Positions 28,013-32,849 of a stretch of 64,000 nucleotides of DNA are shown piece by piece. Source of the DNA: Verrucomicrobium sp. BvORR034 (lineage in GTDB: Bacteria > Verrucomicrobiota > Verrucomicrobiia > Verrucomicrobiales > Verrucomicrobiaceae); assembly GCF_000739635.1 (NCBI RefSeq), contig NZ_BATQ01000166.1, positions 62,001-126,000 on the forward strand, in the 5' to 3' direction. The notes beneath the pieces were generated by a model. That model was given only the letters and a program-made list of their open reading frames with translations, had not been told where the DNA came from and did not search any database. Within the stretch, counting starts at the first letter, position 1. Every line of letters begins with the position of its first letter. Made by a program: the position numbers and the translations under genes.

Positions 28013-28046
28013 GCGTCTCAACGTGCCGCTTGCGGCACATCTCAAC
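28013..28046. repeat. Hairpin + TCTCAAC unit at the end of the CNNM gene
   Basis: GTGCCGC-tt-GCGGCAC flanked by TCTCAAC on both sides. The right-hand TCTCAAC, on the minus strand, contains the TGA stop of the gene at 28042. Confidence 0.7.
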
Positions 28047-29358
28047 TTCCCCCGCCCCCTCCCCTCACCGGCATCAACAGCACCTTGTCCACCCGGTGGC
28101 CGTCCATGTCGATGACCTCCACGCGGTAGCCTTGTTCCTCGAACCAGTCCCCCTCCTTGGGCACGCCGCCCATGCGGCGCATGAGATACCCGGCAAAGGT
28201 CTGGTAGTCACGTTCCGCGGCCGGAGGCAGGGTAAAGCCCTGCACACTTTCCTCGAACATCTCGCAGTCCATCATCGCATCGATGAGCCAGGAGCCATCG
28301 TCCCGGCGCAGGGCGCGTGGCTTGAGCCGCACGTCCTGGGAGGGGAAGTCTCCCACGATGGCCTCCATGATGTCGTGCACGGTGACCACACCGATGACAC
28401 TGCCGAACTCATCCACCACCAGCGCGAGGTGCTTGCCGGAGGTCTTGAAGGTGTCCAGCAGCTTGGACGCCGGCGTGGTGTCCGGTGTCATCATCATGGG
28501 CGTCATGACATCCCGCACCCGCACGGGCACTCCCGCCGCCAGGTTCGCGTAAATAGCCTTCACGGACACCACGCCCACCACATGGTCCCGCCGCCCTTCA
28601 TACACGGGGAAATACGAGTGACCGCTGACCACAATCTTGTGCCAGAGCAGGTCGTGAGGCTCATCCGCATTCACCCAGATGATCTTCGCGCGCGGCGTCA
28701 TCAGCTCCCGCGCCTGGAGGTGGTCGAGTTCGAGGACATTTTCCACCATGCTGGACTCTGTGGGGACAAACACTCCCGCCCGCATGCCCTCCCGCATGAG
28801 TGACTTCACCTCCTCATCAGAGATCGTCTGCTCCTCCGTGATCTTGATGCCAAAGAGGCGCAACATGCCGTCCGTGGAAGCACTCAGAAAATCCACCGCC
28901 GGTCCCGTGATACGGGACAGCCGGCTCATGGGCCGCGCCAGAAGCACGGCATAGCCCTCGGGATTGTTCAAACCCAGCCGCTTGGGGATGAGTTCCCCCA
29001 CCACGAGCGAGAGGTAAGTGATGGCCACCACCACGAGCACGAAGCTCACCGTCTGGGCGTAGTGCTGCAACCCGGGAACCTCTCTCAACACCACCACTAG
29101 ATGCTCTGACAAGGTCGCACCGCCATAGACCCCTGTCAGAATGCCCACCAGAGTGATGCCGATCTGCACCGTGGCCAGGAATCGGCTGGGATTCTCCGCC
29201 AGTTCCAGGGCCACTCCGGCACGGGCGTCGCCCGCCTCTGCCAGGGTTCGCAAACGGTTCCGCTTGGAGGAGACCAGGGCGATCTCCGCCATGGCAAACA
29301 CCCCATTGGCAACCACCAGGAAGAAGATGATCCCAATTTCAAACAAGATTACACTCAT
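28042..29358 (-). CDS. CNNM/CorC-type membrane protein (hemolysin family)
   Basis: 438 residues. An N-terminal DUF21 membrane domain (about 1-190; FFLVVANGVFAMAEIALVSS at the start) is followed by a CBS pair (about 200-330; ELMTPRAKI, VRDVMTPMM, VVDEFGSVIGVVTVHDI) and a C-terminal CorC/HlyC domain. The family is linked to Mg2+ or Co2+ transport and efflux, and the old name hemolysin is misleading. It ends in a Gly-rich tail whose stop codon lies in a repeat. Appears monocistronic. Confidence 0.9.
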   Translation of the reverse strand: MSVILFEIGIIFFLVVANGVFAMAEIALVSSKRNRLRTLAEAGDARAGVALELAENPSRFLATVQIGITLVGILTGVYGGATLSEHLVVVLREVPGLQHYAQTVSFVLVVVAITYLSLVVGELIPKRLGLNNPEGYAVLLARPMSRLSRITGPAVDFLSASTDGMLRLFGIKITEEQTISDEEVKSLMREGMRAGVFVPTESSMVENVLELDHLQARELMTPRAKIIWVNADEPHDLLWHKIVVSGHSYFPVYEGRRDHVVGVVSVKAIYANLAAGVPVRVRDVMTPMMMTPDTTPASKLLDTFKTSGKHLALVVDEFGSVIGVVTVHDIMEAIVGDFPSQDVRLKPRALRRDDGSWLIDAMMDCEMFEESVQGFTLPPAAERDYQTFAGYLMRRMGGVPKEGDWFEEQGYRVEVIDMDGHRVDKVLLMPVRGGGGGS

Positions 29359-29524: not shown

Positions 29525-30925
29525 TTAGTAGATCATCTTGGAGTCCGGCTCCGCCGTCTCCACCATGCTCACCGCTTCCACCATCGGCACCGTCTGGTTG
29601 CCCTCCTGACGATAGGTGACCTTTCCGATCACCTTCACCCAACCCATGTCTTTGAAGGCAGGCGGGGTCTTCCCAAACTCCACGGGGATTGAATACGGCC
29701 GGGCGTCCGCCGCGCAACACTGCACCTGCAGGCGGAAGATGCGCACGCGGGTCCCCGCATCATTGTTCACCTTCTCCGGCATCACTTGAGCGATCGTTTC
29801 CACAGACTGGCCGTTGAGCACGGACTGCACCTCCTTGTCGCCAGCGGTGTAGAAGATCTCCGGCACCTCCAGCATGAAGTTACCCTCCTTGCTCCGCGGC
29901 ACCTGGGCCTCCAGATCCTTCAGCGTGAAATGTCCGTAGTTTTTGGCCTCAGCACCAGCACTCTTGGCCTGGCGGTCAAGTTCTTGCGGATTCACTGGCG
30001 GCATCACATCTCCAGGTTGTCCAGCGGCAGCCTGGGGTCCAGGAGGGGAGTCAGAAGAGGAGGCCCCTGCCACTGTCGGACTTCCTGCGGGGCGATTACC
30101 CGCCTCTTTCTTCAGCGAGAACTGGTCGGCCAGACCGCCCTGACCATAATTCTGGTTGTATAAGCCCTTGTTGACCACCGCCCGGGAACTGAACTGGTCC
30201 GGCGTGTTGATCGCCGCGTAGCTAACTGGGACCGCCAACAGGAAAATGGCGACCAACCGGCCGACCACGCCGCTTTCCTCTAGAATGCCATGGGCGTGGG
30301 TATGGTCATGGTCGTGCTCGTGATGATCATCAAGACCGTGGCTGTGAGCGTGGTCATGATGCTCATGACCGCAGCACCCTTGCTTCCCGCCTGGTTCATG
30401 GGAATGAGCATGCGCGTGGGCGTGGGCGTGCCCATGCGCTTCCTCTTTCTGGGGATGCTCATGGCCGCAGCCTGGACCATGCACATTCCCATGGGAATGG
30501 GCCTGCACAGACGCTGCCGCGTTTTCATGGGCATGGGTATGCTCATGCTCGTGCCCACATCCAGGTCCGTGACTGTGCCCATGATCATGGCTGCACCCGG
30601 GCCCGTGCACATGTCCATGCTGGTGGCTATGGGCGTGTTCATGCTTGTGGCCGTGATCATGATCGTGGCCATGTTCATGCCCGCAACCGCCGCCTGCGTC
30701 ACCGTCATCCGAGCAACAATCAGCGTCTTTGGCCGTGGTCGTAACCAGATTGAACAACGCAAGAATCATGAGGCCGATACCAGCCACTAGGACCATGGGC
30801 CGGAAGATCCCATCCGCTGGCAGGTAGTTTATCAGGCGCCCGCTGGCATAGAAGTAGAGCATCACTGCGCCCCACAACATCAGGAGCAGAACGCTGGTCA
30901 CATGAATGGCAGTGCGTTTCGTCAT
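29525..30925 (-). CDS. TIGR03943/YcgQ-like permease partner with giant His-rich insert
   Basis: 466 residues. Two N-terminal membrane segments (about 9-27, 41-60), then a third near 221-239, and a C-terminal soluble domain (about 350-466) typical of the YcgQ/DUF1980 family, with QVQCCAADARP and VKVIGKVTY. Between the second and third segments (residues about 81-213, bases 30287-30685) is a His-rich stretch with roughly 47 His, mostly alternating with Asp, Glu, Ala, Ser or Gly, and three HGPGC motifs. Usual members have no such insert. Its start overlaps the stop of the permease gene (ATGA). Metal binding is inferred from composition. Confidence 0.85.
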   Translation of the reverse strand: MTKRTAIHVTSVLLLMLWGAVMLYFYASGRLINYLPADGIFRPMVLVAGIGLMILALFNLVTTTAKDADCCSDDGDAGGGCGHEHGHDHDHGHKHEHAHSHQHGHVHGPGCSHDHGHSHGPGCGHEHEHTHAHENAAASVQAHSHGNVHGPGCGHEHPQKEEAHGHAHAHAHAHSHEPGGKQGCCGHEHHDHAHSHGLDDHHEHDHDHTHAHGILEESGVVGRLVAIFLLAVPVSYAAINTPDQFSSRAVVNKGLYNQNYGQGGLADQFSLKKEAGNRPAGSPTVAGASSSDSPPGPQAAAGQPGDVMPPVNPQELDRQAKSAGAEAKNYGHFTLKDLEAQVPRSKEGNFMLEVPEIFYTAGDKEVQSVLNGQSVETIAQVMPEKVNNDAGTRVRIFRLQVQCCAADARPYSIPVEFGKTPPAFKDMGWVKVIGKVTYRQEGNQTVPMVEAVSMVETAEPDSKMIY

Positions 30926-32010
30926 GGCTTGGCTTCGGTTGAAGGTGAGGGCGATACAGTAGGTGCGGATGCTGGAGGCGAGATTGGAGCCGCAGGAGGA
31001 GCGCCCGAAGGCCCACCTGGACCGGTACTTGAGACAGCGGTGGGCACCGGCTTGTTGGAAAGCTTGCCCACCCATTTTGCCCAGGGCTCGCAAAGAAGCG
31101 CCACCAGCAGGAAGATGGCCACACACAGCCCGACCATGAACTTCCGACGGAAAACGGAGGAATACATGAAGACCAGCTTCACATCCAGCATGGGGCCAAA
31201 GACCAGGAAGGCCAGCTTGGCTGCATTGGAGAAGCTGTCCATGGGTGCCGCAATGAACGCATCCGAAGTGCTGCACAGCGCCAGGGCAAAAGCGAGCCCC
31301 ATCAGGGAGGGCACAGCGAAGAGTTCATTCCCCGCCACCGCCGTGATCTTGCTCTGGTCGATCTGCGTGTTGAAGGCCGCCGTGATGATCACCCCGATGG
31401 TGAAGTACATCGCCGTATCCAGGAAGTCCCGCATGGCCGTGCGCATGGCGTGCGTGAGCTTCGCATCGAAACTCTGGGTGGCTCCATTGGCAGCCGCCGC
31501 CCCCTTGCCAATGCCCCGGACGACCGCATCCGTCAGCACGTCCGCTGGCTTCTTCCGGATCAACGCCAGCCCCACTATGACGGCCACCGCATACCCCAGG
31601 GTGATGCGGGAAAGCGTCATCGTCGCATTCCCGATACCGAAGATACCGTCTATTTTCTGGAACTCCTTGAACGCGGTGAGGGTACTCGCGATGACGATGG
31701 GATTGATGATGGGGGCGCTTAACAGGTAGGTGATGCCGCAAGATATCGGCAACCCCTTCTGCACCAGCCGTCGCACCACCGGGACCACCGCGCACTCACA
31801 CACCGGAAACACCAGCCCCAGAAAGCCCGCCGCGAAGGTGGAAAGGACGCGATTCTTCGGGAGCACCCTCTCCAGCAGCTTCGCAGGGAGGAAGGCGTCA
31901 ATCAACCCCGACAGTAGTGTGCCCACCAGGATGTAAGGGGCCCCCTCAAACAGGATGCTCAAGAAGGCCTTCAGAATGTCACCGGTCGCGCTCGGTTCAG
32001 GCAGGGTCAT
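30922..32010 (-). CDS. Permease of the YraQ/YcgR (DUF318) family
   Basis: 362 residues with about eight membrane segments. The family signature is clear: FPVCECAVVPVVRRLVQKGL then YLLSAPIINPIV, repeated in the second half as LCSTSDAFIAA. The C-terminal 45 residues are Pro/Ser-rich and probably disordered. The substrate is not firmly known. The partner gene overlaps by four bases, so the two products are probably a complex. The His-rich partner makes a transition metal a reasonable guess. Confidence 0.87.
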   Translation of the reverse strand: MTLPEPSATGDILKAFLSILFEGAPYILVGTLLSGLIDAFLPAKLLERVLPKNRVLSTFAAGFLGLVFPVCECAVVPVVRRLVQKGLPISCGITYLLSAPIINPIVIASTLTAFKEFQKIDGIFGIGNATMTLSRITLGYAVAVIVGLALIRKKPADVLTDAVVRGIGKGAAAANGATQSFDAKLTHAMRTAMRDFLDTAMYFTIGVIITAAFNTQIDQSKITAVAGNELFAVPSLMGLAFALALCSTSDAFIAAPMDSFSNAAKLAFLVFGPMLDVKLVFMYSSVFRRKFMVGLCVAIFLLVALLCEPWAKWVGKLSNKPVPTAVSSTGPGGPSGAPPAAPISPPASAPTVSPSPSTEAKP

Positions 32011-32243
32011 GCGGAAGTGGTCGAAATGTGAATGGAGCCCCTACTTACGTCCGAAGGCATTCGGTTCAAACGGGGAAACACAAACATGACCACTTTTCAC
32101 AGGTCCATTGGACAACTGCTCCGCGATGCCCTTCGTATTTCTGCTGTCACCGCACCAATCCCCAAACCTTCCCTTGCCGCGTGGCGTATCCCTGCTAGCA
32201 CTTTTCCCGAGTTCAAACCTAAAACACTGAACGGAACAACACC

Positions 32244-32849
32244 ATGGCCCATACCCTGCCTCCCCTTCCTTACGACAAAGCCGCCCTTGAGCCCCACATC
32301 GACGCCCAGACGATGGAAATCCACCACGGCCGTCACCACAACGCCTATGTGACGAACCTGAACAACGCGATCGCTGGCAACGCAGAGCTCGAGGCGCTCA
32401 GCATCGACGACCTGAACAAGAACATCAACAGCGTGCCCGAGGGCATCCGCACCGCTGTGCGCAACAACGGTGGCGGCCACTGGAACCACACCTTCTTCTG
32501 GAACATCATGGGCCCGAACGCCGGTGGCGCCCCCAAGGGTGAACTCGCCGCCGCCATCGACGCCGCCTTCGGCAGCTTCGACGCCTTCAAGGAAGCCTTC
32601 GCCAAGGCTGGCGTGGGTCGTTTTGGCTCCGGCTGGGCCTGGCTGGTGAAAAAAGACGGCAAAGTCGCCATCACCTCCACCCCCAATCAGGACAACCCCC
32701 TCATGGACGGTTCCGGCACCCCGCTGCTGGGCATCGACGTCTGGGAGCACGCCTACTACCTGAAGTATCAGAACAAGCGCCCTGACTACATCGCCGCCTG
32801 GTGGAATGTGGTGAACTGGGACGCTGTCGCCGAGCGCTTTGCTGCGTAA
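32244..32849 (+). CDS. sodA: Superoxide dismutase, Mn-type
   Basis: 201 residues. Converts superoxide to oxygen and peroxide. Metal ligands His27 (EIHHGRHH), His82 (HWNHTFFW), Asp165 and His169 (DVWEHAYY). GGGHWNH and the Gln in NQDNPLM favour manganese over iron. The ATG at 32244 gives the usual [11 protein letters not shown] start. Divergent from the permease pair; the 233-base space between them should hold both promoters, but no clear boxes were found. A terminator follows. Confidence 0.95.

Follow-up and report, generated by a model that had tools for sequence, protein, structure and literature searches.

Results

Two adjacent genes on the minus strand of the window, the 64,000-nucleotide stretch of the Verrucomicrobium sp. 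BvORR034 genome that was analysed, encode a YraQ/YcgR-type permease and a DUF1980 (YcgQ-like) partner (Table 1). The sequence-only reading had noticed that the two genes overlap, which is confirmed: 4 nt are shared between the start ATG of the DUF1980 gene and the end of the permease gene. Translation and hydropathy likewise bear out its description of 133 residues with 47 histidines and three HGPGC motifs (aa 107, 119 and 149) between membrane segments, which flank the His-rich loop on either side. The AF2 model of the DUF1980 protein (mean pLDDT 71) places helices at residues 2-28, 41-64 and 220-240, and most of the loop between the latter two has a pLDDT below 50. The His-rich stretch is no clean tandem array, and Tandem Repeats Finder reports only 17-nt and 51-nt arrays inside it. 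An open frame on the plus strand (30290-30790) corresponds to the His-loop codons read in reverse. A wrong reading frame for the loop was ruled out, since TM segments and the C domain are conserved in the same frame.

In Pfam, residues 390-466 match DUF1980_C (PF21537) with 39.3 bits, above the gathering cut-off of 25.9. The TIGR03943 score of the protein is 68.1 bits and lies below the equivalog cut-off of 88.8; we therefore class it as a DUF1980_C protein working like TIGR03943 rather than as a TIGR03943 member. A CNNM/CorC-type protein (best NCBIfam match PaeA, 306.6 of 500 bits) is encoded directly downstream on the same strand at 28042-29358, and its gene has the same place in both genus relatives (L032, L033) and in L126.

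Table 1. Coordinates of the permease/DUF1980 pair in the window and of the palindromic sites in related loci
Feature	Position	Strand	Basis or remark
DUF1980 / YcgQ-like subunit, 466 aa	29525..30925	-	Order: TM1, TM2, His-rich loop, TM3, linker, OB-fold domain
C-terminal OB-fold domain, about aa 344-461	29543..29896	-	Predicted model and fold matches
Cys403-Cys404 of the CCAADARP motif	29714..29719	-	Invariant over 89 sequences
Whole TM2-TM3 loop, aa 61-218 (158 aa, 47 His and 8 Cys), predicted disordered	30272..30745	-	Alignment and model
First-noted His-rich stretch, aa 81-213	30287..30685	-	133 residues: 47 His, 21 Gly, 6 Cys
YraQ/YcgR-type permease (ArsP_1), 362 aa	30922..32010	-	Pfam ArsP_1; 4-nt overlap with the DUF1980 gene
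Permease Cys246-Ser-Thr-Ser-Asp250	31261..31275	-	Between model helices 229-243 and 247-254
Permease central loop, aa 150-180	31471..31563	-	Site of a giant His loop in other relatives; very likely cytoplasmic
Permease Cys71-Glu72-Cys73	31792..31800	-	Invariant, 68 sequences; between model helices 54-67 and 75-84
Palindrome sites	L196:4329, 4553, 7174, 7234, 7398, 15962; L169:1454; L170:1451; L171:2148		

The permease matches ArsP_1 (PF03773) with 177.4 bits (gathering cut-off 32.3) and is the only ArsP_1 match in the genome sequence searched. It is only a distant match to the SO_0444 Cu/Zn efflux family (NF033936; 74.9 bits, far below the equivalog cut-off of 300), and it scores 50.1 bits against the SaoE efflux transporter (NF040736; equivalog cut-off 325). 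Besides the Cys-Glu-Cys motif, C246, S247, D250 and N103-P104 are invariant over 68 sequences, and most invariant residues fall at breaks of the model helices that resemble re-entrant tips and broken TMs. CEC and CS...DAF motifs are present in all eight plasmid permeases read. For most of its length the AF2 model (pLDDT 88) can be superposed on Pho90, NaS1, NaDC3 and INDY (VIA Z 12.8-14.6; for 8r35_A, Z 14.6, rmsd 5.4 and 291 aligned residues), with a best Foldseek E-value of only 0.032; TRAP carriers and YdaH reach a Z of about 10. Among the best 35 fold matches one is a crosslink-based model and all others are carriers of these kinds. The matched carriers (of the Pho90, NaS1, NaDC3, INDY, TRAP and YdaH kinds) we take to be elevator types. 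Judged from its model, the permease resembles an elevator-like carrier with the invariant Cys-Glu-Cys and Cys-Ser..Asp motifs at apparent re-entrant tips. This modelled resemblance to DASS/TRAP carriers is at odds with a sequence study placing the ArsP family in the TOG superfamily (PMC7176098).

An Fe/Mn superoxide dismutase gene (32244-32849) is oriented divergently to that of the permease. The same divergent arrangement occurs in other genera (L035, L071, L075, L081, L114, L151), and the gap between the two genes is 93-95% identical within the genus.

The C domain of the DUF1980 protein is predicted to adopt an OB fold (best Z 10.6; best Foldseek E 9.7e-6); a sequence search against solved structures gave no convincing relative (best E 0.59 and 0.57). 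Fold matches include PA4066 (4hsp; Foldseek rank 3, E 1.2e-3) and CusF (E 0.029), and most are DNA-binding OB folds. PA4066, with which the C domain has the OB fold in common, belongs to the operon PA4063-PA4066, reported as a zinc-deficiency operon in which PA4063 is a His-rich zinc-binding protein (PMC8561739). However, PA4066 is described as periplasmic and without TM helices and has no sequence match to the DUF1980 protein, and other OB folds, mostly DNA-binding, match the C domain as well as PA4066 or better.

The loop was then compared across relatives. The DUF1980_C profile matches 76 places in 75 of 96 genomes, the window's genome included, and loci were read for 71 of these, five of the weakest places being left out. 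The loop is conserved: at least 10 histidines lie between TM2 and TM3 in 65 of the 71 homologues and at least 20 in 58, with loop lengths of 16-178 aa (median 99) and a median His fraction of 0.31. All three genus orthologues compared also have the insert, so that the earlier claim that relatives lack it was wrong. The alignment that the sequence-only reading had proposed as a check did not find the insert absent in all close relatives, and short forms occur in other phyla as well. A recent local repeat expansion is ruled out by the retention of the loop in the genus orthologues and in homologues throughout the order. Fewer than 10 histidines are found in six of the 71 homologues (L034, the second copy in genome G003, and L037, L063, L065, L070 and L071); L034, L063 and L071 have no His cluster in this loop, and in L063 and L071 the permease is present beside the DUF1980 loop without His.

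DUF1980_C proteins occur in 19 of 288 genomes of the phylum sample. A second family of the same order, f2 (nine loci: L154, L158, L159, L163-L168), carries a short loop of the form CGHDH...HDHE with 3-7 His. Among four loci outside this order but within the phylum, L155 carries 4 His, while L153, L160 and L162 have none and still have the permease. Plasmid loci of Pseudomonadota, Bacillota and Actinomycetota have 1-7 loop histidines in eight of eight cases (Pseudalkalibacillus 1, Priestia 2, others 4-7, with Magnetococcus and Enterococcus counted by eye), and the short loop of the Bacillota plasmid partners occupies the same place as the giant loop of the window protein. A plasmid search with the C part of the window protein gave no match. 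Outside the order the loop is shorter or at times missing, so the giant form seems to have arisen by enlargement of an older short element that, from these sequences, appears widespread in the family.

Within the genus the three orthologues share 99-100% of the C domain and 63-75% of the loop, with 20-34 gap columns in the latter. In these comparisons 39/47, 41/49 and 46/51 His columns are kept, against 65/91, 47/90 and 48/94 of the other loop columns, although aligning His on His inflates the conservation of His columns. Among the kept histidines 12/39, 14/41 and 25/46 have switched between CAT and CAC. The giant form thus changes fast in length yet keeps its His, which suggests selection for His content with loose spacing. 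It is very improbable, in our view, that the giant loop is a tolerated low-complexity expansion without a function of its own. The wide range of loop lengths, the frequent indels within the genus and the count of 4 His in L037, where the sisters L035 and L036 have 38 and 30, would fit such an expansion; against it stand the steady His fraction, the His codons kept despite CAT/CAC switches (in an alignment that favours His on His) and the long His loops of the partner subunit described below, which need about 4 changes on a quick tree.

A permease match was found in 155 of the 166 loci tried, and the TIGR03943-type pairing with an ArsP_1 permease holds for the window pair. The His loops of both subunits were compared over 112 usable pairs, 90 of them distinct. 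The other 54 of the 166 loci were set aside, 11 because no permease match was present, 42 because the permease was short or unmatched and 1 because it had too few TM segments; a stricter pass kept 80 distinct of 98 pairs. In L163-L168 there are 12-24 His in the central loop of the permease, repeatedly in the form CCGHDHDH, versus 5-6 in the DUF1980 loop by the limits of that count; in the window's genus the permease loop has 1 His versus 47-55 in the DUF1980 loop. At least 4 His are present in one loop or the other in 88 of the 90 distinct pairs, the exceptions being L071 and L160. A permease loop with at least 10 His accompanies 7 of 13 DUF1980 loops with fewer than 10 His versus 3 of 77 with more (Fisher p 2e-5 on the raw table). 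A quick tree, several forks of which are poorly supported, implies about 4 changes for the giant permease loops. These data do not establish a trade-off between the subunits, as no rank correlation is seen (rho -0.11, p 0.29) and the tree yields 4 independent pairs, too few for a test. We accordingly restrict the claim to placement and repeated gain: as read from these sequences, the giant His loop can sit on either subunit and appears to have been gained repeatedly.

Lysine and arginine are concentrated on the central-loop side of the permease (mean 13.4 vs 1.8 on the other side, 68 permeases, with sides assigned from the model helices), which makes a cytoplasmic position of this loop very likely. 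The DUF1980 loop would share that position if the two loops are equivalent, and we consider it probably cytosolic. The DUF1980 proteins of Verrucomicrobiota, with values of 1.64 for the N-tail and 1.12 for the loop edges vs 2.25 and 2.75, lean slightly against a cytoplasmic loop, and six DUF1980 proteins of two other phyla lean towards one (32 vs 21; two of eight were uncountable). The His-rich tails that precede TM1 in L065, L066 and L070 are on the same side as the loop, whichever side this is.

A zinc-type neighbourhood surrounds a paralogue. Genome G003, from the same genus, has a second DUF1980 gene (L034) without the His loop, which follows HisI (PRA-CH) and CobW genes in an operon at L196:15964-18719; no permease match was found in its 7.3-kb locus. 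A Fur-family gene and another CobW gene (closest to ZigA, 186.5 vs a cut-off of 600) lie within 15 kb of this operon. HisI paralogues and COG0523 proteins are reported as members of zinc-limitation regulons (PMC2770081). As it is the loopless paralogue that sits in this zinc-type operon, its evidence reaches the loop-bearing pair only via the family.

Nine distinct sites in the 1.26 Mb examined match a palindrome, TAATGCAA-N(4-5)-TTGCATTA, when up to 3 mismatches are allowed. One precedes the HisI-CobW-DUF1980 operon, two lie beside the Fur-family gene and three beside a choice-of-anchor M gene belonging to that cluster. Further sites precede CobW-domain genes in three genomes, including that of the window. 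The adjacency of the palindrome to zinc-type genes is partly built in, because the scanned sequence was chosen rich in these loci. Three base-composition shuffles, searched with spacing 5 only, gave no site at up to 2 mismatches and five at 3. In three genomes of the genus we take the palindrome to be a candidate Zur box of Verrucomicrobium. Neither the promoter of the pair nor the rest of the window has a copy at the limit of 3 mismatches, and no inverted repeat was found upstream of the pair at 31990-32280.

Gene neighbourhoods were sampled as 180 ORFs from 32 chosen loci, 129 of which were run against Pfam. The commonest family is Fe/Mn SOD (5/129), and among the matches listed no metal-transport family recurs beyond FeoB_N (2/129). 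On the Pseudalkalibacillus plasmid a CobW-type GTPase with a GCICC motif precedes the pair. On a Priestia megaterium plasmid (L206:1-5852) the neighbours of the pair include a cation P-type ATPase and three proteins with HMA2 domains.

Published work on related systems adds to this. Purified Zur of B. anthracis is reported to bind upstream of BAS1632, an ArsP_1 permease, by EMSA, and as the EMSA primers are the yciC primers swapped, the BAS1632 operon and yciC have one upstream region in common (PMC6336718). Shewanella is reported to require SO_0444 when stressed by Zn or Cu (PMC3219624), a relative to be induced by Cd and Cu in Nitratiruptor (PMC10092412), and a characterised ArsP to export organoarsenicals (PMC7176098). 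The sequence-only reading had proposed that the insert points to transition-metal binding and may reveal what the pair carries. Metal handling and a guessable cargo gain support as inferences, from the HisI-CobW operon of the paralogue and from the Zur EMSA (PMC6336718).

Discussion

Zinc is likely the cargo of the pair and is the best supported one. This reading draws on the HisI-CobW-DUF1980 operon of the paralogue, the shared palindrome, the CobW gene of Pseudalkalibacillus, the Zur EMSA (PMC6336718) and the need for SO_0444 under stress (PMC3219624). A different soft or borderline ion (Cu, Cd, Ni, Co or a thiol-bound arsenical), with the loop as a general metal buffer, seems to us quite unlikely. 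The failure of SO_0444 mutants under Cu as well as Zn (PMC3219624), the Cd- and Cu-induced relative (PMC10092412), organoarsenical export by ArsP (PMC7176098) and the P-type ATPase and HMA2-domain neighbours in Priestia would agree with such a cargo, but the HisI, CobW and Zur contexts point to zinc, and the SO_0444 cut-off lies far above the score of the window permease.

As to direction, export of zinc is somewhat favoured. Uptake or salvage under zinc limitation, in which the loop would gather incoming zinc and pass it on, for example to CobW/COG0523 chaperones, is rather unlikely in our judgement. It would account for the paralogue's operon, for the zinc-limitation regulons to which HisI paralogues and COG0523 proteins are assigned (PMC2770081), for the CobW-type gene ahead of the Pseudalkalibacillus pair and for the upstream region that the B. 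anthracis operon has in common with yciC (PMC6336718). On the other hand, SO_0444, of the permease superfamily, is reported to protect against Zn and Cu (PMC3219624), the authors of the EMSA study infer activation of the ArsP_1 operon by Zur, not repression (PMC6336718), and the window pair has no palindrome beside it.

We propose, with evenly balanced confidence, a two-subunit transition-metal transporter, most likely for zinc and with export favoured, in which an elevator carrier works with a disordered, probably cytosolic His/Cys trap. The ArsP_1 subunit would be the elevator-type carrier, with Cys-Glu-Cys and Cys-Ser-Thr-Ser-Asp, each at a re-entrant tip, forming the lining of its site, and the DUF1980 subunit would contribute three TM helices and an extracytoplasmic OB domain with the Cys-Cys pair. 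The disordered His/Cys loop between TM2 and TM3, probably cytosolic, would capture zinc and either hand the metal to the carrier or gate the carrier. In the window's family the short ancestral loop would have grown to a long multi-site trap, and in the other family of the order the trap would have grown in the permease. The sequences themselves show that the loop is conserved, that it can lie on either subunit, that the two genes go together and that a paralogue has zinc-type neighbours; from these we infer the cargo, its direction, the side on which the loop lies and what the loop does. Several observations weigh against the proposal: the permease-bearing pairs with no His in the DUF1980 loop (L063, L071, L153, L160 and L162), the absence of the palindrome from the window, the lack of a recurrent metal family among the 129 neighbour ORFs, the slight charge bias of the DUF1980 proteins in Verrucomicrobiota, and a carrier fold match that depends on VIA Z values and conflicts with the published superfamily assignment (PMC7176098).

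His loops in metal transporters are already known, and ZIP and CDF zinc transporters have disordered His-rich cytosolic loops between TM helices. These are unrelated families; here the His loop is on an accessory subunit, or on the carrier in relatives. ArsP organoarsenical exporters (PF03773, TC 2.A.119) belong to the same Pfam family as the window permease, but no ars genes were seen by the window pair and the gene context of the family is here of the zinc type. Linked genes for a permease and a DUF1980-type partner, as here, are also described for two TIGR03943 pairs, B. subtilis YcgR/YcgQ and the ScfA/ScfB pair of group A Streptococcus (PMC5584981); the window partner stands apart by its giant loop and by its score under the TIGR03943 cut-off, ScfA/ScfB being likened by description. 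Zur binding at an ArsP_1 operon is already in print (PMC6336718). Literature naming DUF1980, COG3689, COG0701, TIGR03943 or PF09323, mostly titles and abstract starts, held no description of the His loop, and in the literature searched, to the same extent, we found nothing on the occurrence of the loop across the family, on its giant form, on its location in one subunit or the other, or on a thiol-lined elevator model.

Tentatively, and with more doubt than confidence, the view can be widened: YcgR/YcgQ-type pairs including ScfAB may represent a new type of zinc exporter with two subunits, with an elevator carrier, a thiolate/carboxylate site and a cytosolic His/Cys trap on either subunit that would have expanded repeatedly in Verrucomicrobiota. 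DUF1980/YraQ-type pairs are widespread and include streptococcal genes described as needed for infection fitness, with function unknown (PMC5584981). Given the recurrent His loop on either subunit and the contexts with HisI, CobW and Zur, zinc becomes an answer that can be tested directly for them. The window's family represents the extreme form, and deletion of the loop should act clearly there.
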